From the NCBI GenBank assembly GCA_025054515.1, contig JANWZT010000003.1, positions 1-35,321 of the forward strand: a stretch of DNA of 35,321 nt, given 5' to 3'. The DNA is from Candidatus Caldarchaeum sp. (GTDB taxonomy: Archaea; Thermoproteota; Nitrososphaeria_A; Caldarchaeales; Caldarchaeaceae). Below, one piece after another: positions 845 to 11,581 of the stretch (positions are counted from its first letter, which is position 1; each line of letters begins with the position of its first letter). The position numbers and the translations under genes were made by a program. The notes under the pieces were generated by a model, which saw nothing but the letters and a program-made list of their open reading frames with translations, had not been told where the DNA came from and ran no database searches.

Positions 845-872
845 GTTTGGTTTTGGACGGTGCTGGTTGTCC

Positions 873-1919
873 ATGAGTTTTCTGCGAACTTTCGTCGTCA
901 AGGCTGCGACGCTTGTCATAGTGCTGTTGACTGTGCTTCTGCTGGTCGTCGTGGTGTTGGGCTACACCGGTGTTTCCGACAGAATTCTCGCGGCCTACGT
1001 CAACGAAGAACTGCGGACAGTCCGGCAAAGCCTTTCCCAGCGGATCAAAGACCCGGTCGAGCTGGAGGCGGCGGTGGAGCAGGTGAAGAAAGAGCTTTGG
1101 GAATCCTACGGCCTCGACAGGCCTTGGTACGAAAGAATTCCCGCCATGGTTTTCCGGGTTCTTTTCCTCGACCTCGGATACTCTCGGACTATCACGTCGT
1201 TCGCGGGAAGTAGGAAAGTCGCAGACATCATAGCGGAACGCATCCCCTACACCATACTGCTGGTGACGACGGCCGTCGTCATAAGCGCGTTTGTCGGCAT
1301 CAACCTCGGCATGAGGGCCGCCTACCGGAGGGGAAAAGCCCTCGACAAAGCGGTTGTTTATCTTGCCGCCGCGAGCTACGCCCTTCCATCGTGGTGGACG
1401 GGCTTGATACTAATCCTCATTTTCTACTACCAGCTCCGTCTATTTCCGTCGGGCGGGCTTTACAGCGCGCCGCCTCCTACAGACCCGTTTCTCAGGTTTT
1501 TCGACCTTCTCTGGCACGCTTTCCTACCGGTTTTGACGCTGGTGATAATCGTCGTAGGAGGATGGGCCTACGTCAGCCGGACAATCGTCCTCAACATAGT
1601 TCAGGAAGATTTCGTCCAGGTCGCGAAGGCGAAAGGCCTGCCGGACAGCTTGATACGCAGCCGATATGTTCTGAGGCCCGCTGCACCACCGATAGCGACG
1701 AACATCGTCTTCGCCATCGCCGGCTCCATCGGCGGCGCGATACTGACGGAAACGGTCTTCAACTGGCCCGGCATGGGAAGGCTCTACTACGAAGCCATTT
1801 CAGCCTTCGACGAAGGCCTCGTCGTCGCCCTCACCTTCATCTATACCGTCATCTACGTCGCGGCAAGGTTTATCATCGAAATTTTGATAATTGCCCTCGA
1901 CCCCCGTGTAAGGGTTTAA
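873..1919 (+). CDS. dppB: ABC transporter permease, DppB/OppB-like
   Basis: N-terminal TM, SYALPSWWTGLILI, and the EAA-type loop VQVAKAKGLPDSLIRSRYVLRPAAPP. ATG at 873 follows a possible TTG at 867. Confidence 0.9.
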   Translation: MSFLRTFVVKAATLVIVLLTVLLLVVVVLGYTGVSDRILAAYVNEELRTVRQSLSQRIKDPVELEAAVEQVKKELWESYGLDRPWYERIPAMVFRVLFLDLGYSRTITSFAGSRKVADIIAERIPYTILLVTTAVVISAFVGINLGMRAAYRRGKALDKAVVYLAAASYALPSWWTGLILILIFYYQLRLFPSGGLYSAPPPTDPFLRFFDLLWHAFLPVLTLVIIVVGGWAYVSRTIVLNIVQEDFVQVAKAKGLPDSLIRSRYVLRPAAPPIATNIVFAIAGSIGGAILTETVFNWPGMGRLYYEAISAFDEGLVVALTFIYTVIYVAARFIIEILIIALDPRVRV

Positions 1920-1954: not shown

Positions 1955-2695
1955 ATGAAGTCGTTAACGGTTGCGGCTGTCGTCGTTGCGTTGTTTGCAG
2001 GAGTGGCCGTTGGAGCGACGTACTACTCGGTGGTTCTGGGGGAGAGCACGGCGGCCTACCAGCGTTTGGTCGACGAGCTACGGGCTGAAAACAGCCGTCT
2101 TCAGAGCCAGCTGACCGCTTCAAACAACCGGGTCAGCGGCCTCGAATCGGACATCAAATCCGTTCAAGCTCTTCTCGACAACGCCCAGAGAAGGGCCCGG
2201 GAACTGGATGAAAGGGTGCGGCGGCTGGAGGCCCAGATTCAGCAGTTGACGGACGAAAACACGGCGGCGAGAAGGGAGCTACAGTCCCTCCGGGCGAAAT
2301 CAGAGGCCGTCAAAAACGTTCTAACGCGTTTGGAGAACGACCGCGTTCTCCTCAGCTGGATACGGAACGACCCGCCGAACCAGCGGGAAGCCGCGAGAGA
2401 ATTCTGGAACGAAACACGTACCCTAAGCCTGAAAAGCGAACCCAACCTCGCGCTGACCGTGGACAAAATCCTCGCCAGCCTCGACCTATACTTCGACTGG
2501 TTGGAAAAACAACCGCGGCTGACCGGAACTTCCCGCGCCGAAATAATCGCTTGGTGCCCGCTCTACATCGACTGGATACTCAACGCGCCACCGGGAGTTG
2601 ACGAATATCCAAACGCGATAGAGCAGCTGACCGACGAAATTCTCCTCGTCGTCATCGGGCACATCGACTCGCTTTCAACAATTTTGGAAGGTTAG
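1955..2695 (+). CDS. Membrane-anchored coiled-coil protein of unknown function
   Basis: ATG at 1955 (MKSLTVAAVVVALFAGVAVGATYYS), one N-terminal TM, then a long heptad-rich helix. The ORF track start at 1391 runs out of frame through dppB. Confidence 0.8.
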   Translation: MKSLTVAAVVVALFAGVAVGATYYSVVLGESTAAYQRLVDELRAENSRLQSQLTASNNRVSGLESDIKSVQALLDNAQRRARELDERVRRLEAQIQQLTDENTAARRELQSLRAKSEAVKNVLTRLENDRVLLSWIRNDPPNQREAAREFWNETRTLSLKSEPNLALTVDKILASLDLYFDWLEKQPRLTGTSRAEIIAWCPLYIDWILNAPPGVDEYPNAIEQLTDEILLVVIGHIDSLSTILEG

Positions 2696-5211
2696 CGGCG
2701 GCGCAGTAGCAAGGCGGCTGCCACGGCAACGGCGGCGACGCCAGCTAAAGCTATGATGAGCCAGGTCGGCGGCGGAGGTTGTTCTGGGGCCGCTGGAGTG
2801 GTTACGACGGTCGTTCTCGGGGTTGTAACGGTGGTTGTTGGTCTGCGTACTTCGATTTTTTCGACGAAGTTGAAGGCGGTGGCGACTTGTTCGCTGTAGG
2901 CTACGGCCACGAGCTCGATGAAGCCGGGGCTTAGTCCGGCTGTTTTCGCGGCTGGAAGCGTTATTCTAACCGCTCCCGCCGTCGGTTTGGCCACTCCCGA
3001 TTCAAGGGTTTGGCCGGTGGCCGGGTCTTTGATGAAGTATGTTACGGCGACGTCGGCCGGGCCTGCGGTGTTTATGGTGATGACGGCGTCGCTTCCCGGC
3101 GATATCGTTCCTTCGACTTTTTGGATGCGTGGTTTGTCAACTGTTCCGAAATACCATTTTCCGGGCTTGAACGGGTACGACGGGTCTCGGAAGGCCCTCA
3201 GCTCGGCGTACTGTGAAGCGGGGTCGAAGACGGCGAGGTAGTAGGGGCCGTTGCTTACGACGGCGAGGTTGTAGGTGTTTATCCAGTTGAGGAGAGCCCT
3301 GTACCGTGCCATAGCGTTTTCCCGTGTTTCGTATGCTTTGCCGCCGACGGTGAAGACGTTCGACGGGAAGAAGTTTTTCGCCATGAAATCGTTCAAAGCA
3401 AGCCTGACGAGGCTCACCTGCTCCCTCAGGACGAGGTTTAGCTGGTCAACTCGGAAGCGGGCGGCGGCGGTGTCGCTGTAGGCGACGAGCCTTCGGGTGA
3501 AGACGAGGTCGTCCGATGCTGCGAGAAGCTCCCAAGGCATGCCTCCGCCGAAGACGTCGGCGTATTCGGCGATGTAGTCTTTTTCGAAGTTCCAGTAGTC
3601 GACGTAGACTTCGAGCCTGCTGTCGTCAAGTATCCGGAAGCCTTTGAAAGTTTCGAGGACCGGCCTTGACGTGAATGCGAGGGCGAATTCGATGCGTGAT
3701 TTTGTTTCGTCGTAGGCGATGTCGAAGCTTTGGTGGATGCGGTAGAGTACATCGGCCATGGTTATCGGGATGCCGTGATGCCATTTCGACGCGGTGTATT
3801 GGCGGTAGTCGAAGGTGACTTTGCTTATGGCCCTTGTCCCCGACGGAACGGTTTTCCAGCTTTTTGACGCGGCATCCCAGGTGAAAGCGTCGGACGGCAC
3901 CGAAAGCGTTCCCGTCGGCCCCGCTGTTTCGACCGTGTAGCTTGCTCTGAAAGGTATGGGGAGGCCTGTGAACGGATGACGGGTTAGGGAGGGGTCTGCG
4001 ACGGCCCTCCAAAGGTCCGCGCTGTAGACGTCGCCGAAGCCTCCGACGGGGTTCCACACGGTTCGGGGAGTCCAGACCCAGAGGTGGCCGATGTTGAGGA
4101 TTTCTCTGCCCGGCACGTGTGTTTCCCGGAGGGTCCAGATTCCCCTCGCGCCGGCGGCCAAATCTTCGGTAACTCCTTGAATCTTCTTCGACAACGGCGT
4201 GCTCTGCATAACTACGGCGACCCAGACCCTCACCGACTCTGACACGCATTCACGTAAAGCCCTTAGGTAGAGGGTGTTTCTTTCTTCGCGGCCGCTGTAT
4301 TGTCCTTTGAAGATGCGTTGGCCCAGCTCGTCGAGCAGCTGGTTGCTGTACTGCCAGTAGCCGAATTCCTGCCATCCCGGCATGTTTCCCAGCCACGGCG
4401 CGCAGAACTGGTTAATCGACGTCGAATCATACTTCTCCAGGGCTCCCCGGCCCCATCCTTCGGTGTAAATGTGCCACGTGAACTCCTGCGGGTCGGTTGT
4501 GTAAACCCTTGCGATGGCCTGAGCGAAGGGTAAGTAGATTCTTTCGACGGAGAACCCGGCTTTCTCCAGCTCCGAAGCGACGAGGTCTCCTATCTCCCTT
4601 CTTTCATCCTCCGTCCTTATCACAAACTTGAGCGAAATCGGTGTGTCGCGGAAGAACCATTTGCCGTCTCTTTTGACCGCTCCCGCGGCGGTCAAGGCGT
4701 TGGAGATTATTCTGTTGGCGTATTCGGGGTCGTACCGTATTCCTGTTCCGAGGACGGTGTTGAAGAACTGTGCGTAATCGTAGTCGTAGGGGGTTAGGAT
4801 GGTTACCATCGGAGACGCCAGCCCGCGGTAGAGCTCCCGGGAAACGTATTCCCGGTTGACGAGATATTGGAAGGCCTGCCGAACTTCCTTGATGCTGAAG
4901 GGGTTGAGGCCGCGGGGGTCGGGCGCCGGGTTGAGGATGAGCGAAAGAAGAAGCGACGGAGCTCTGACCATCGATATGTCGGGCCTGTTTTCGAGTGCTT
5001 GGAGACGGGAGACCCGCATGCTGTAAAGGTAGATGTCGATGTCGCCGCGTTCAAGAGCTTGGGGAGCAACCTCCTCCGCATACGCTCTTACGCGTATCAC
5101 GTCCGCCGCCGGACCTGGTTTGCTGTGGGGCGGGCTGTACTGCTGGGCACCAGCCGAAAGCAGGAGAAAAGTCAACAGCAGAAACACGGATGCATACGCT
5201 CTGGCTTTCAA
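2692..5211 (-). CDS. Family 5 extracellular solute-binding protein (peptide/oligosaccharide ABC transporter) with signal peptide, Thr/Pro-rich stalk and C-terminal TM anchor; apparently circularly permuted
   Basis: Contains SBP_5 blocks (EVRQAFQYLVNREYVSRELYRG; KWHHGIPITMADVLYRIHQSFD; NGPYYLAVFDP), with C-terminal TTTVTTPRTTVVTTPAAPEQPPPPTWLIIALAGVAAVAVAAALLLRRR. Confidence 0.88.
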   Translation of the reverse strand: MKARAYASVFLLLTFLLLSAGAQQYSPPHSKPGPAADVIRVRAYAEEVAPQALERGDIDIYLYSMRVSRLQALENRPDISMVRAPSLLLSLILNPAPDPRGLNPFSIKEVRQAFQYLVNREYVSRELYRGLASPMVTILTPYDYDYAQFFNTVLGTGIRYDPEYANRIISNALTAAGAVKRDGKWFFRDTPISLKFVIRTEDERREIGDLVASELEKAGFSVERIYLPFAQAIARVYTTDPQEFTWHIYTEGWGRGALEKYDSTSINQFCAPWLGNMPGWQEFGYWQYSNQLLDELGQRIFKGQYSGREERNTLYLRALRECVSESVRVWVAVVMQSTPLSKKIQGVTEDLAAGARGIWTLRETHVPGREILNIGHLWVWTPRTVWNPVGGFGDVYSADLWRAVADPSLTRHPFTGLPIPFRASYTVETAGPTGTLSVPSDAFTWDAASKSWKTVPSGTRAISKVTFDYRQYTASKWHHGIPITMADVLYRIHQSFDIAYDETKSRIEFALAFTSRPVLETFKGFRILDDSRLEVYVDYWNFEKDYIAEYADVFGGGMPWELLAASDDLVFTRRLVAYSDTAAARFRVDQLNLVLREQVSLVRLALNDFMAKNFFPSNVFTVGGKAYETRENAMARYRALLNWINTYNLAVVSNGPYYLAVFDPASQYAELRAFRDPSYPFKPGKWYFGTVDKPRIQKVEGTISPGSDAVITINTAGPADVAVTYFIKDPATGQTLESGVAKPTAGAVRITLPAAKTAGLSPGFIELVAVAYSEQVATAFNFVEKIEVRRPTTTVTTPRTTVVTTPAAPEQPPPPTWLIIALAGVAAVAVAAALLLRRR

Positions 5212-7397
5212 ACCTTTCTCCCTCTTCTCGCCGCAATAGCGAAAGCAGCAACGGCGGCCGCGACGGCGACGATGGCCAGCCCGAAAGCCATGTCCCCCAT
5301 CTGGTTTGAACCAGACCTGCTGAGCTCGGGCTTCAGTCGTTCGGCGACGGCGTCGGCGAGCTTGTCCACGTCGACTTGGCTCGGAAGCTTTTTCATCATT
5401 TCGTCGAGTTTCTTCGACGTGTCCTCCCGAACGGTCCTCAGCTGGTCTAAGACGTTGTTGAACCCGAAGCTGGTGTAGTAGGTTGCTTCGGCGACGTTGC
5501 CGAGGACGTCGATGGCCCTGATGAGATGAGCGCCTTCACCCGATACGGGGACGTAGATGGTGGCCGTGAACCTGCCGGCCGCGTCGGTGGGGAAGGATGA
5601 GATGACGACGCCGTCGAACTCGATGAAAACTTCCCGTTGCCGTGCAGCGAACCCGTCGCCTACGATGGTAATCACCTGCCCCGCCGGGCCCGAAGGCGGG
5701 CTGATGAAAATGGATGGCGACTTTACTGCCCTCAGTCTCGCGAAGCCGATGTCTTGGTTGGGAGAGCCCCGGAACCCGGCCCGTGAATCTGTCCACACCA
5801 TGTAGACGTCGTTGTTGGTCGCCGCTATGCCCCAGTAGTCTCCGACGAAGCTGGCTATGCCGTAGGCTGGGTTGGACGGATAATCGGTTACCCTCGAGTT
5901 TTCGAGGAATGTTTCACCCCGGTCGCCGGAACGCGTGTAGTAGATGTGGTAGCGGTAGTTGTCGGGGTCGTCGCGCATGTCGCCCCAGATGACGTGGATG
6001 GTGCCGTTGGGCGAAACAGTCAACGCCGGGAAGAACTGGTTACGGGTCGTCAAATCGTCGTTTATTCTCCGCGGCCTCGACCAAGTTGCTCCTCCGTCGG
6101 TCGATTTGGAGAAGTAGACGTCGGAAAGGTCTCCGGCGGCTCTTCCCATCGCTCCGAAGGAGATGTAGACTTCGTTGCTGTTCTGGGGGTTGGCGGCGAT
6201 GAATGGGAACATCGAAGCCCATGAACGGAAGTAGGTGGGGCTGAGGAAGAAGGGCTGCTCCCAGGTTCCGCCGGGAACGACCGGCGAAGGCCTCGACCAC
6301 GTTCTCCCCCCGTCCCGTGAAACAACGACCATCGGGGTGAACAATCCCTTGAACGGGCCGTCGTCGAGCGAATCGTAGTAAGCCACGTAAACGGTTCCGT
6401 CTGGAGCCACGTGGACGTTGCTTCCCTGAACGAGACGAGCTTCTTCGTCGCCCGCCAACCCGCTGAAAACGGGGCTGACGGCGACGGGGCTTGTCCACGT
6501 CTCGCCACCGTCCACAGATTTGACGAGCTTAATCGAAACCTCTACGACGGGCTCGCCGACGAACGGATAGAAGTCGAGAAACGGATAGATTATTCGGAAC
6601 TCTGTGTAGGTGACGTAGATCGCGTCCCGGGCTGGGTTGGCTCTGTCCGGGCCCACTGCCATCCATGGCTTATCGAGGAAAGAGACAGCGGCTCTGTCGG
6701 CGGCAGGCACTACCCTCCCCCTCGAAGCCACGTAGGGATAGCTCCACGTCACCCCGCCGTCCTTTGACACCGAAACCGTGACGCTTGCAACCTCTGTTTC
6801 ATAGAGAAGCCTTCCTATGCGTAGCGGTCTCGCTCCAATCGATAGGAGGGTATAGTAGGCTGTGCCGTCTCTGCCGAAGGCCACGACGGGGTCGCTGCAG
6901 AAGCTGTCCTCGGGCCCGGGAGCTGTCATGGATGGGCCTCGCCATGTTTCTCCCCCGTCGAAGCTTACGTAGCTTACGGCGCAGGAGACGTCGAAGTCGT
7001 GGGATGCCATGATGAGGTGGTCGGGGTTGTTGGGGTTGACGGCGATGTGCGGCTCGTTTTGGTATGGCCTGTTGCCTATGTCGAATGTTATCATTACGTT
7101 TCGGCTGAATTTGGCGGTCGGCGAGCGGTAGGGGATGTTGATGAGAGGCCCTTGCGGCGTGACGGCCTGCGTCTCAACGGGAAGCGTAAATCCTTCAAAC
7201 TCACGTTCCTTAAATTCCGCACCAATCCGGTAGGCCGCCCCGCCCGAAAGTCTTTCACCAACGACCAGAGAAGACCGGAAAACCTTCGCCGTCAACTGTC
7301 TTTCCGCAAACTCCTCCCCCCATTCAGCTCCTTCAACCATCGGAGCAAACAAACTCACCATGAGAACTGCCAACGCAAAACCAACAACAACCTTCAT
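5208..7397 (-). CDS. Secreted, membrane-anchored BNR/Asp-box beta-propeller protein (sialidase-superfamily fold)
   Basis: Six Asp-box motifs (VSFDGGETW, VSKDGGVTW, KSVDGGETW, VSRDGGRTW, KSTDGGATW, RSGDRGETF), signal peptide, IPT/TIG-like module (PSIFISPPSGPAGQVITIVGDGF), C-terminal TM. Start MKVVVGF at 7397 is preferred to 7409. Stop overlaps the SBP start by 4 nt. Confidence 0.88.
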   Translation of the reverse strand: MKVVVGFALAVLMVSLFAPMVEGAEWGEEFAERQLTAKVFRSSLVVGERLSGGAAYRIGAEFKEREFEGFTLPVETQAVTPQGPLINIPYRSPTAKFSRNVMITFDIGNRPYQNEPHIAVNPNNPDHLIMASHDFDVSCAVSYVSFDGGETWRGPSMTAPGPEDSFCSDPVVAFGRDGTAYYTLLSIGARPLRIGRLLYETEVASVTVSVSKDGGVTWSYPYVASRGRVVPAADRAAVSFLDKPWMAVGPDRANPARDAIYVTYTEFRIIYPFLDFYPFVGEPVVEVSIKLVKSVDGGETWTSPVAVSPVFSGLAGDEEARLVQGSNVHVAPDGTVYVAYYDSLDDGPFKGLFTPMVVVSRDGGRTWSRPSPVVPGGTWEQPFFLSPTYFRSWASMFPFIAANPQNSNEVYISFGAMGRAAGDLSDVYFSKSTDGGATWSRPRRINDDLTTRNQFFPALTVSPNGTIHVIWGDMRDDPDNYRYHIYYTRSGDRGETFLENSRVTDYPSNPAYGIASFVGDYWGIAATNNDVYMVWTDSRAGFRGSPNQDIGFARLRAVKSPSIFISPPSGPAGQVITIVGDGFAARQREVFIEFDGVVISSFPTDAAGRFTATIYVPVSGEGAHLIRAIDVLGNVAEATYYTSFGFNNVLDQLRTVREDTSKKLDEMMKKLPSQVDVDKLADAVAERLKPELSRSGSNQMGDMAFGLAIVAVAAAVAAFAIAARRGRKV

Positions 7398-7482
7398 GGA
7401 AAGAACCAATACTGAAAAACATTAAACTTTTTCCAAACACAACACAGTAACGCTTAAAGGCTCACATATCCCGTTAAAAACC

Positions 7483-8175
7483 GTGGTTTTCGGGTCGAAA
7501 ACAGTCGTTCTGACTCTGGCTTTAGCCGCTTTGCTCATACCAGCTTCTTCGCAACAGCAGGTTCCCGGAACAGGGTTCAGCTCCGCCCTCGAACTAACTT
7601 CCGGCACCTACTCCTTCTACCTCGCCGTGGGAGAAACACATTTCTTCAAAATCAACCTCGACCCCGGCGACATCCTAGTCGTCAAAGTCCGGATGGCCTT
7701 CAACCAAGACTTCGACCTCTACCTACTCAACCCACTTAGGGAAATCGTCGCCCAAAGCGTCCGCGCCGCCGGGTTCACCGACTCCATCGAGCTCATCGCC
7801 GCCGAAAAAGGCCCGCACTACATGGTTGTGACCGGGTTCGGTGTCACGCAGGGCACCTATTCGTTGACCGTGTTCGTCCAGAAGCCGCGCACCGTTACGC
7901 AGACGGTCACTACGACGGTTACGCAGAGGCTGACGGAAACCGCTACCGCCCTGTCTTTCATGACCAACACCGTGGTTTCGGAGAAGCTGGTGACCGTGGT
8001 CGATAGGGAAGTGGTCGAAGTTGAGCGGATTCCGTGGACGGCCGTCGGACTCGCCGTCCTCGCCGCATCAGTCCTCTACCTCGGCTATGCCGCGTCCAAC
8101 ACGTTGAAAAACATGGGAAGACGGGAGGAGAAACAGACGCCTCCACCCGCTTCAGAACCGTCTAAAACCGAATAA
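7483..8175 (+). CDS. Secreted PPC-like beta-sandwich protein with Thr-rich linker and C-terminal TM
   Basis: Signal peptide; YSFYLAVGETHFFKINLDPGDILVVKVRMAFNQDFDLYLLNP resembles the bacterial pre-peptidase C-terminal domain; TVTQTVTTTVTQ linker; TM near the C-terminus. GTG start about 25-30 nt after an AT-rich box, possibly leaderless. Confidence 0.75.
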   Translation: MVFGSKTVVLTLALAALLIPASSQQQVPGTGFSSALELTSGTYSFYLAVGETHFFKINLDPGDILVVKVRMAFNQDFDLYLLNPLREIVAQSVRAAGFTDSIELIAAEKGPHYMVVTGFGVTQGTYSLTVFVQKPRTVTQTVTTTVTQRLTETATALSFMTNTVVSEKLVTVVDREVVEVERIPWTAVGLAVLAASVLYLGYAASNTLKNMGRREEKQTPPPASEPSKTE

Positions 8176-8182
8176 ATCGTCT

Positions 8183-9172
8183 TCATCCATAAAGGTGGCA
8201 GGCGACGTAGCGATTTCCATCGACTTTCTGTAGCTTGGGGTCTTCACGTGGACATCTTTCGAAAGCTTTGGGACATCGGGGATGAAACCGGCATCCCGGA
8301 GGAATGTTCCGGGGTGAAGGCGGCTCACCCACTATCGCGGGCCTTTCCACAAACCTGTTGGAGGGGTCGGGCTCGGGAACCGAAGCGACGAGTCCCTGTG
8401 TGTAGGGATGCAGGGGCTCCGACAAAACATCGTCTACATCCCCCACCTCCACTATTCTGCCGAGATACATGACCGCTATTTTTTCGGCGAAGTAACGGGT
8501 TGTCGCAAGGTCGTGTGAAATGTAGAGAAAGGCGATTCCGTGTTCTTTCTGCAGTCTTTTCATGACGTCTAAGACTTCGGCTTTGCTGGATGCGTCGATC
8601 ATCGAAACAGGTTCATCAGCGACGATGTAACGGGGCTTGATGACGATGGCCCTCGCGATGGCCGCCCTCTGCCTCATTCCGCCCGAAAGAAGATGCGGAT
8701 ATTTTGCGGCGACGTCCTGCGGAGGAGTCAGCCGAACCTCCTCGAGAGCTCTGTAGACGTTTTCAAGCCTCTTTTCTCTGTCTTCGACTCCGTGAGCTAT
8801 CAAAGGTTCTTCGACTGTTTCGCCGACGGTGAGATACGGGTTGATGCTTGAGTAGGGGTCTTGGAAAATCATCCGCGTTTCACGTCTAAGCTTTGTCAGA
8901 TGTTTTTCAGGTAGGTTGGTGATGTCGGCTCCGTCGTAGATGACACGGCCTTCCGTCGGCTTCAGCAGTCTTATGCTGAGTTTTCCGACGGTTGTTTTCC
9001 CGCTGCCGGATTCACCTACGAGGGCGAAGGCCTCGCCTTCATGGACAACGATGTCGACGCCGTCAACGGCGCGGACAGCCGACGAACGGAGAAACCCTTT
9101 CCGCACCCTGTATGTCATGCCCACGCCGTCGAGAACAACCAACCGCCTACGCATCCCATCATCCAATTCCAT
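8183..9172 (-). CDS. oppF: Oligopeptide ABC transporter ATP-binding protein, OppF/DppF-like
   Basis: Walker A GESGSGKTT, signature LLSGGMRQRAAIARAI, Walker B YIVADEPVSMIDAS, C-terminal GCRFHPRCPKAFERC motif. Confidence 0.93.
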   Translation of the reverse strand: MELDDGMRRRLVVLDGVGMTYRVRKGFLRSSAVRAVDGVDIVVHEGEAFALVGESGSGKTTVGKLSIRLLKPTEGRVIYDGADITNLPEKHLTKLRRETRMIFQDPYSSINPYLTVGETVEEPLIAHGVEDREKRLENVYRALEEVRLTPPQDVAAKYPHLLSGGMRQRAAIARAIVIKPRYIVADEPVSMIDASSKAEVLDVMKRLQKEHGIAFLYISHDLATTRYFAEKIAVMYLGRIVEVGDVDDVLSEPLHPYTQGLVASVPEPDPSNRFVERPAIVGEPPSPRNIPPGCRFHPRCPKAFERCPREDPKLQKVDGNRYVACHLYG

Positions 9173-9216
9173 CCGTTATTAACTACAACGCTCAAATATT
9201 TACGAGTTGGACGTTG

Positions 9217-10620
9217 GTGGGGTTGGCGTGGGAGAATAGCTGGCGGGTTTTCTGGTCTTCGAACGTCTCGAAGGCCGGAGTTTTTCTCCTCGCGGCGATG
9301 GTGGCGATTTCGCTGTATGTCGTATCCACTTACCCGCTTGATTTCGGAACACGCTACTGGAACAACCCATCATACTGGGCCGACAACCCGAAAGAAGTCC
9401 CACCCGAATGGACAAACCTCTTCACAGCACGGCCGGCGCCGACCCACATCACCGTATCAATCAAAGACGTCGGAGAAACCTTCGAAAAATCCTTCAACTA
9501 CTTCTTCGAAGATTTCCCCAGCTTCGTATCCGTCACGGTTTCGGAGGTGGTTTACCGCGAAAGGCCTCCGACCCTGTTGTTCGAGCTTCTTAGACCCGAC
9601 GGAAGCAAAGCCCTCTTCTACGTTTTGACGGTTTCACCGCCCACGCCGGGCGAAACGCCTCCCTACAAAAGACATTTCGAAACTCGCCTCCGAGTCTACT
9701 TGAGCGGAGACATTCAGGCAGGCCGTTATCTCAGCAGGTTTCTTGCTTCGGAATACGGGAGTGGTTTTTCCCCCGAAGACGTTGTTCGGCTGGGTGTTGA
9801 GAAGGTTTTGTTCGGTGTCCCGGATGGAGCGGGGATGAAGCCGTTGCCCGGTGTTTATTCTTTCTCGGTGCGTGTTGTGAAAAACAACCCCGACGATGTG
9901 GTGGGTGATGTCTCCTTCGTGGTCGGCGGCAAGGTGTTCGGCGTGTTTGGAACGGACCGGCTGGGCCGCGACCTCGCCACGGGCCTTCTTTTCGGCTTCC
10001 CCGTCGCCCTGCTGATCGGCGTCGTGACGGCGGTTTCGACGACGGCGGTCGGGTCTTCGCTCGGCATGGTCAGCGGATACGTCGGCGGAAAAATAGACGA
10101 AGCGATACAGAGAACCTGCGACGTCCTCAACAACATCCCACTCCTTCCGCTGCTCATCTTCTTCACCTTCATCTTCAAGCCAAGCATCTGGCTCATCGTA
10201 CTTATCCTCGTTGCCTTCGGCTGGTCCGGGCTGGCGATAGTCGTCCGCTCCATCGTCCTGCAAGCCAAAACAGCACAGTACGTCGAAGCCGCTGAATCAC
10301 TCGGCGTAAAACGAACCCGCATCCTCCTCAAACACATCACCCCACAGATAGCCCCCTTCATAATATCGCAGATGATCTTCTCAACCCCCGGCGCCATCCT
10401 CGCCGAAGCGGCCTTAAGCTTTCTCGGCCTCGGAGACCCAGCCCTACCCAGCTGGGGCCAGATACTCGAATACGCGTTCCGCAGCGGCGGCGTCAACCTC
10501 GGGCTTTGGTGGTGGATTTTCCCGCCCGGGGCCCTGATAGCCCTTACCTCTTTCGCGTTCGTGATGATTTCGCTGGGTATGGAGCCGGTCGTAAGCCCGC
10601 GTCTCCGGAGGATGACGTAG
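9217..10620 (+). CDS. dppC: ABC transporter permease, DppC/OppC-like, with a large extracytoplasmic insertion
   Basis: FGTDRLGRDLATGLLFGFPVALLIGVV; EAA loop YVEAAESLGVKRTRILLKHITPQ; SFLGLGDPALPSWGQIL. Start uncertain: TTG 9214, GTG 9217 or TTG 9223. The track start at 8992 is antisense to oppF and implausible. Confidence 0.88.
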   Translation: MGLAWENSWRVFWSSNVSKAGVFLLAAMVAISLYVVSTYPLDFGTRYWNNPSYWADNPKEVPPEWTNLFTARPAPTHITVSIKDVGETFEKSFNYFFEDFPSFVSVTVSEVVYRERPPTLLFELLRPDGSKALFYVLTVSPPTPGETPPYKRHFETRLRVYLSGDIQAGRYLSRFLASEYGSGFSPEDVVRLGVEKVLFGVPDGAGMKPLPGVYSFSVRVVKNNPDDVVGDVSFVVGGKVFGVFGTDRLGRDLATGLLFGFPVALLIGVVTAVSTTAVGSSLGMVSGYVGGKIDEAIQRTCDVLNNIPLLPLLIFFTFIFKPSIWLIVLILVAFGWSGLAIVVRSIVLQAKTAQYVEAAESLGVKRTRILLKHITPQIAPFIISQMIFSTPGAILAEAALSFLGLGDPALPSWGQILEYAFRSGGVNLGLWWWIFPPGALIALTSFAFVMISLGMEPVVSPRLRRMT

Positions 10621-10621
10621 T

Positions 10622-11581
10622 TTGCTCGACGTCCGGAATCTTCGGCTCTACTACGGGATGGGCGGGACGGTGGTGAAGGCCGTGGACGGCGTCGAGTTCA
10701 GAGTGGCGGACGGCGAAACCATCGGGCTCGTCGGAGAGTCTGGAAGCGGAAAAACAAGCACGGGCCTCGCGCTTATGCGGCTGCTTCCCAACAACGTCGT
10801 CCACTTCAGCGGACACGCCTTCATCGACGGCGTCGACCTCCTCGCGATGGACTATCGAAAATTCGTCGCCGAATTCAGATGGAAGGTGGTGTCGATGGTT
10901 TTTCAGGGGGCTATGAACAGCTTCAACCCCGTTCTGAAGGTCGGCGAACAGGTTGCGGAGCCTCTACTCGTCAAAACAGACGCCGACAGGAAAGAGGCGG
11001 TCAATTTGGTGAAGAAGATGTTCCGTCAGGTGGGGCTGCCGGAGGAGGTTGCGGAAAGATATCCACACGAGCTGAGCGGCGGCATGAAACAAAGGGCCAT
11101 GATAGCGATGGCCCTCATCCTCAACCCGCGGCTGATTATCCTCGACGAGCCGACATCGGCCCTGGATGTATCAATCCAAACACAGGTGATAAACCTCCTC
11201 AAAAAACTCAAAAAAGAACTCCAGCTGTCGATGATATTCATCACACATGACCTCGCGCTGGTCAGCGACATCGCCGACAGCATCGCCGTCATGTACGCTG
11301 GTGAAGTGGTGGAATTCGGCGTCTCCGACGACCTGCTGACCAACCCAGCCCATCCCTACACCCAGAAACTCCTCAAATCAATCCCACGCCTCAAAGGCTC
11401 CAAAACCCTCGAATACATTCCCGGCCAGCCCCCCAACCTGTCAAACCCCCCAACCGGATGCCGCTTCCACCCCAGATGTCCACGCGTCTTCGATAAATGC
11501 AGTCTCGAAACACCGCCGTCGATAGCTGTCGGCAACGGTGTGGTGAAATGCTGGCTTTATGGCGGTGAAAAAGAAGGTTAA
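10622..11581 (+). CDS. oppD: Oligopeptide ABC transporter ATP-binding protein, OppD/DppD-like
   Basis: GESGSGKTST, ELSGGMKQRAMIAMAL, LIILDEPTSALDV, GCRFHPRCPRVFDKC; TTG start immediately after the dppC stop. Confidence 0.93.
   Translation: MLDVRNLRLYYGMGGTVVKAVDGVEFRVADGETIGLVGESGSGKTSTGLALMRLLPNNVVHFSGHAFIDGVDLLAMDYRKFVAEFRWKVVSMVFQGAMNSFNPVLKVGEQVAEPLLVKTDADRKEAVNLVKKMFRQVGLPEEVAERYPHELSGGMKQRAMIAMALILNPRLIILDEPTSALDVSIQTQVINLLKKLKKELQLSMIFITHDLALVSDIADSIAVMYAGEVVEFGVSDDLLTNPAHPYTQKLLKSIPRLKGSKTLEYIPGQPPNLSNPPTGCRFHPRCPRVFDKCSLETPPSIAVGNGVVKCWLYGGEKEG

Follow-up and report, generated by a model that had tools for sequence, protein, structure and literature searches.

A family-5 substrate-binding protein with swapped block order in Candidatus Caldarchaeum and in related archaea and bacteria

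The gene at 5211..2692 on the reverse strand of the window, the 35,321-nucleotide stretch of Candidatus Caldarchaeum sp. DNA analysed here, encodes a substrate-binding protein (SBP) of family 5 (PF00496, Opp/Dpp) whose conserved blocks stand in swapped order. We consider it highly probable that this protein is a working ABC-importer receptor produced by an evolutionary circular permutation of the family-5 fold, with relocated termini. The reading frame begins with TTG and runs for 839 aa without an internal stop. Its start overlaps the end of the upstream BNR gene by 4 bases, and a hidden upstream piece of SBP coding sequence is therefore unlikely. The SBP core of about 665 residues follows a signal peptide and precedes an Ig-like domain, a Thr/Pro stalk and a C-terminal transmembrane (TM) segment:

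5143..5211, reverse strand: signal peptide, residues 1-23, a hydrophobic stretch up to AGA|QQ that is kept in relatives; putative cleavage site
4099..5142, reverse strand: canonical C-terminal part of a family-5 SBP (VRQA...NR block), now first, residues 24-371; corresponds to 7fi3 313-589 and 663-721 and to PF00496 profile 146-357
4057..4122, reverse strand: join of the old C-terminus to the old N-terminus (THVPGREILNIGHLWVWTPRTV), residues ~364-385, conserved in relatives; profile 345 falls on 7fi3 721 and profile 366 on 7fi3 22
3142..4098, reverse strand: canonical N-terminal part of the SBP (WNP, WHHG..ADV and NGPY blocks), now second, residues 372-690; corresponds to 7fi3 22-309, half-model TM-score 0.75
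2848..3141, reverse strand: beta-sandwich (Ig-like) domain, residues ~691-788; modelled by AlphaFold as successive strands, with block pLDDT values of 84-92
2695..2847, reverse strand: Thr/Pro stalk, transmembrane anchor and RRR tail, residues 789-839, read from the sequence; the type of anchor (TM or other) varies among relatives

An earlier note had proposed a circular permutation followed by a Thr/Pro stalk and a TM anchor. The permutation is borne out by the sequence, by structure prediction with Foldseek searches of the whole model and its second half, and by its conservation across 131 distinct relatives, and stalk and anchor are both present. To this architecture must be added the Ig-like domain between core and stalk, absent from the earlier reading, for which a Pfam search over residues ~691-788 gave no match. 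The peptides quoted in that note all occur in the 839-aa frame in the order it gave; the mature protein does not begin at IRVR, as it had supposed, its N-terminus lying near residue 24 (QYSPPHSKPGPAADV...).

Membership in family 5 is clear from a PF00496 score of 93.1 bits against a curated cut-off of 32.4, and the departure from the canonical linear block order makes the window protein a permuted variant of the family and not an ordinary member. The two halves hit the profile in reversed order. The first half (residues 34-264) matches profile positions 146-357 with an E-value of 1e-21, and the second half by itself gives a weak match at 108-140 (E 0.015), the position expected for a reversal, so that the evidence for this half comes mainly from one solved relative, 7fi3. 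Neither a normal-order match to PF00496 nor a different family in the first half was found. The permuted order also explains why linear annotation covers just part of such proteins.

The solved relative, OppA of Thermococcus kodakarensis, is a cluster C SBP homologous to the window protein over the whole SBP domain. When the window protein alone was searched against the PDB with phmmer, query residues 385-679 aligned with 7fi3 22-308 and residues 45-281 with 7fi3 332-596. A 79-row family profile (window residue approximately profile position + 20) matched the same chain with an E-value of 6e-78, its positions 366-661, 7-256 and 287-345 falling on 22-309, 313-589 and 663-721, respectively. The whole domain is thus covered, window residues ~27-365 corresponding to chain 313-721 and ~385-681 to chain 22-309. 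On the Thermococcus protein the half-profiles reached 115 and 151 bits; with 200 shuffled versions of the window protein they did not exceed ~3 bits. By these alignments there is a single cut in the canonical chain, between 7fi3 309 and 313, and a stretch of about 20 residues links the former ends; with the full domain present and nothing duplicated, this is the pattern of a circular permutation.

The predicted structure points the same way. AlphaFold modelled residues 24-788 from the 79-row alignment with a pLDDT of 93.6 and a pTM of 0.91, and residues 372-700 folded separately with a pLDDT of 91.7. Correspondence to 7fi3 was established half by half, with a sequential aligner. For the whole model, Foldseek returned 7fi3 as top match (E 4e-19, 403 columns, TM-score 0.38) with about one half aligned, as much as an aligner of this kind can recover from a permutant. 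With the second half on its own as query, 7fi3 again ranked first (E 7e-17, TM-score 0.75), the next match being at 5e-4. An OppA-like two-lobed fold is thus predicted, and the permuted chain very likely keeps the usual clam-shell shape.

The permuted SBP is encoded together with DppB/C permeases and DppD/F ATPases, the usual context of family 5, so that a complete DppBCDF gene set, beyond what the earlier note had described, lies near it:

867..1919, forward strand: DppB-type permease (PF00528, 9.8e-33; Opp2B/Opp4B families, under their curated cut-offs)
1955..2695, forward strand: membrane-anchored coiled-coil protein, accessory; homologues near the SBP in many relatives
5208..7409, reverse strand: BNR/Asp-box beta-propeller with TIG/Ig domain and C-terminal TM, surface-anchored (Pfam BNR_2, 6.6e-14)
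7483..8175, forward strand: secreted, membrane-anchored PPC-like protein, named from sequence reading; homologues beside BNR/SBP in Aigarchaeota-type loci
8183..9172, reverse strand: OppF/DppF-type ATPase with oligo_HPY tail (PF00005 and PF08352)
9172..10620, forward strand: DppC-type permease with extended N-terminal part (PF00528; Opp4C family, under cut-off)
10622..11581, forward strand: OppD-type ATPase (NCBIfam OppD subfamily, 1.8e-90, below curated cut-off)

Of the 68 loci whose downstream flank was long enough, 60 had a DppB-type permease nearby, as a rule with DppC and the ATPases behind it, and the BNR propeller gene lay directly upstream in 50 of the 76 loci with enough upstream flank. 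The propeller is strongly conserved beside the permuted SBP in both archaea and bacteria, with many invariant Arg and Asp residues. The coiled-coil protein has a conserved C-terminal region and accompanies BNR/SBP in Aigarchaeota, Thaumarchaeota and some Chloroflexota. The PPC-like protein, for which a Pfam search gave no convincing match, occurs near the SBP only in Caldarchaeum/Pelearchaeum/Geocrenenecus-type loci.

The ligand of the permuted SBP is probably an oligopeptide, by analogy with the nearest solved relative, which was solved with an endogenous pentapeptide. There is a smaller yet appreciable chance of a non-peptide ligand (an oligosaccharide, a glycopeptide, a polyol or a metal chelate); the neighbouring beta-propeller would then capture a polymer or trim it. 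Among the matches are family-5 members that bind sugars, chitin oligosaccharides, sialic acids or nickel, and the frequent upstream neighbour has a distant sialidase relation. However, the title of the closest PDB entry names a pentapeptide, the permeases and ATPases look Opp-type, and the BNR gene is absent from many archaeal members. Matches of the BNR protein to sialidase profiles were weak and partial (best E 1.6e-5), indicating a distant sialidase-fold relation. Flanking genes outside the operon included no common peptidase or glycosidase, and these neighbours gave no pointer to the substrate.

It is very improbable that the protein is a surface sensor or adhesin uncoupled from the transporter. 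Such a role could be imagined for a large, stalked, surface-anchored protein in a window with these genes on both strands (DppB, DppC and OppD forward; SBP, BNR and OppF reverse), but most relatives have DppB, DppC and the ATPases downstream in the same direction. Slightly less probable still is that two domains, partial or unrelated and only by chance similar to SBP blocks, have been fused. The weak PF00496 match of the second half would fit a fusion, yet the two parts complement each other along one PDB chain, leaving about 4 residues uncovered at the cut and duplicating nothing, the whole model has a high pTM, and no reading frame carries either half more than once. As for a chimera, the joining of halves from two tandem SBP genes in a fragmented metagenome bin (the window belongs to a bin with 349 contigs and a completeness of 82%), the chance is negligible, since the same order recurs in independent assemblies, among them collinear homologues of 75-78% identity in the same genus, one on a single 1.68 Mb contig, and 131 distinct permuted relatives from two domains of life with a conserved junction.

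The circularly permuted receptor is widely distributed. Of 61 related genomes, 44 gave matches; full-length, collinear ones were numerous, and some lay in single-contig genomes (e.g. G002 and G059). A scan of GTDB contigs gave 275 encoding stretches, from which 80 loci were kept. Its hosts are bins, and single odd occurrences may be contamination. The archaeal relatives belong to Nitrososphaerota, Thermoproteota, Bathyarchaeota and Nezhaarchaeota and the bacterial ones to Chloroflexota, Bipolaricaulota, Spirochaetota, Thermomicrobiota and one bin named Aerophobetes. The survey of homologs suggested earlier thus found the same order in many archaea, and the form extends beyond them to several bacterial phyla. 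Archaeal and bacterial clades intermingle in an unrooted tree, a topology compatible with transfer between domains. Two further observations concern individual copies. The window's own genome carries a second, partial permuted SBP (~47-52% identity) in two pieces on a short contig (G000:C255), and the permuted SBP gene of Wolframiiraptor gerlachensis (L025, L082) is broken by one TGA, through sequencing error or decay.

All 171 fetched reading frames with both halves (131 distinct by their last 500 residues) were permuted and 0 canonical; order was tested by profile for the loci of the best matches, and distant canonical SBPs, which would not reach a score with both halves, lie outside this count. 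No half was repeated in any of these frames, and the join region is conserved among the permuted relatives. When an artificial un-permuted query was used in the search for a canonical-order sister, matches appeared in 123 of the 200 genomes sampled from the window's phylum (58 of 90 genera), with permuted pairs only among the matches listed; the Thermococcus sequence as query likewise gave no collinear canonical match among the matches listed. Among the sequences tested for order, the nearest archaeal type of OppA occurs in the permuted form only.

Could the permutation serve C-terminal membrane anchoring? This idea is weakened by the bacterial relatives, which may lack a TM or carry sorting-like tails, Tat-like signals or an apparent lipobox, at the N-terminus in one member (L072), and by a canonical paralogue (L003) with the same kind of C-terminal anchor. 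Given such varied anchors, the permutation does not track one anchoring mode. In four bacterial members (L050, L052, L065, L067) the C-terminal tails have the form GGCG...-hydrophobic-RRR and resemble sorting signals, as opposed to the archaeal Thr stalk.

Taken as a circularly permuted importer receptor, the SBP would serve a complete Dpp/Opp-type ABC importer. The canonical second part comes first, the old C-terminus runs into the old N-terminus through a linker of about 20 residues, and the new ends fall between the GPY block and the strand that follows it in the canonical order. The permuted chain is predicted to re-form the normal two-lobed fold, and most likely still closes on its ligand and passes it to DppBC. 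The Ig-like domain, stalk and membrane anchor would now leave the fold at a former mid-chain point. Probably the gene was duplicated in tandem, the copies fused and the outer halves were then lost; no duplicated or fused intermediate was found among the sequences examined. More speculatively, and with the odds against it, the family may form an undescribed, widespread receptor class ("cluster Cc") in which the anchor has moved mid-chain and the SBP could act with the adjacent beta-propeller as a two-part surface capture machine. The conserved propeller partner offers a testable lead on feeding by largely uncultured archaea.

Among known systems, T. kodakarensis OppA is the top structural match for both models; it has the canonical order, whereas the two parts are swapped in the window family, a comparison that covers the SBP domain. 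Canonical DppA/OppA/NikA-type SBPs belong to the same Pfam family above cut-off and have the same kind of partner genes. One of them, in the same genome (L001), matches PF00496 collinearly over profile 2-350 and, unlike the window protein, has the canonical order; half-profiles also place its halves in normal order, with weak scores, and its sequence similarity to the window protein is much lower. We found no report of a permuted family-5/cluster C SBP in the literature, in open-access text including papers on permutation, most subscription papers being outside this scope. Natural permutation of an SBP is already known from Tp0684/TpMglB-2 of Treponema pallidum, a sugar receptor of cluster B that its authors placed in a proposed "cluster Bc" and whose permuted family spans phyla, consists mostly of tethered proteins and retains ligand binding (PMC4990184). 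The family-5 case is apparently undescribed, and the name "cluster Cc" would follow by analogy. Both SBPs are naturally permuted, occur across phyla and are mostly tethered. However, TpMglB-2 has a Type I/cluster B sugar-binding fold, belongs to another SBP cluster and differs in cut site, and the sequence and structure matches of the window protein are family-5 SBPs, not proteins of that fold; TpMglB-2 is thus an analogue and not a relative of the event described here. Circular permutations spread so far are, in our judgement, uncommon. This one affects a major class of nutrient receptors, extends to several bacterial phyla and provides, beside TpMglB-2, a second natural test of whether a shift of the tether point matters for SBPs.
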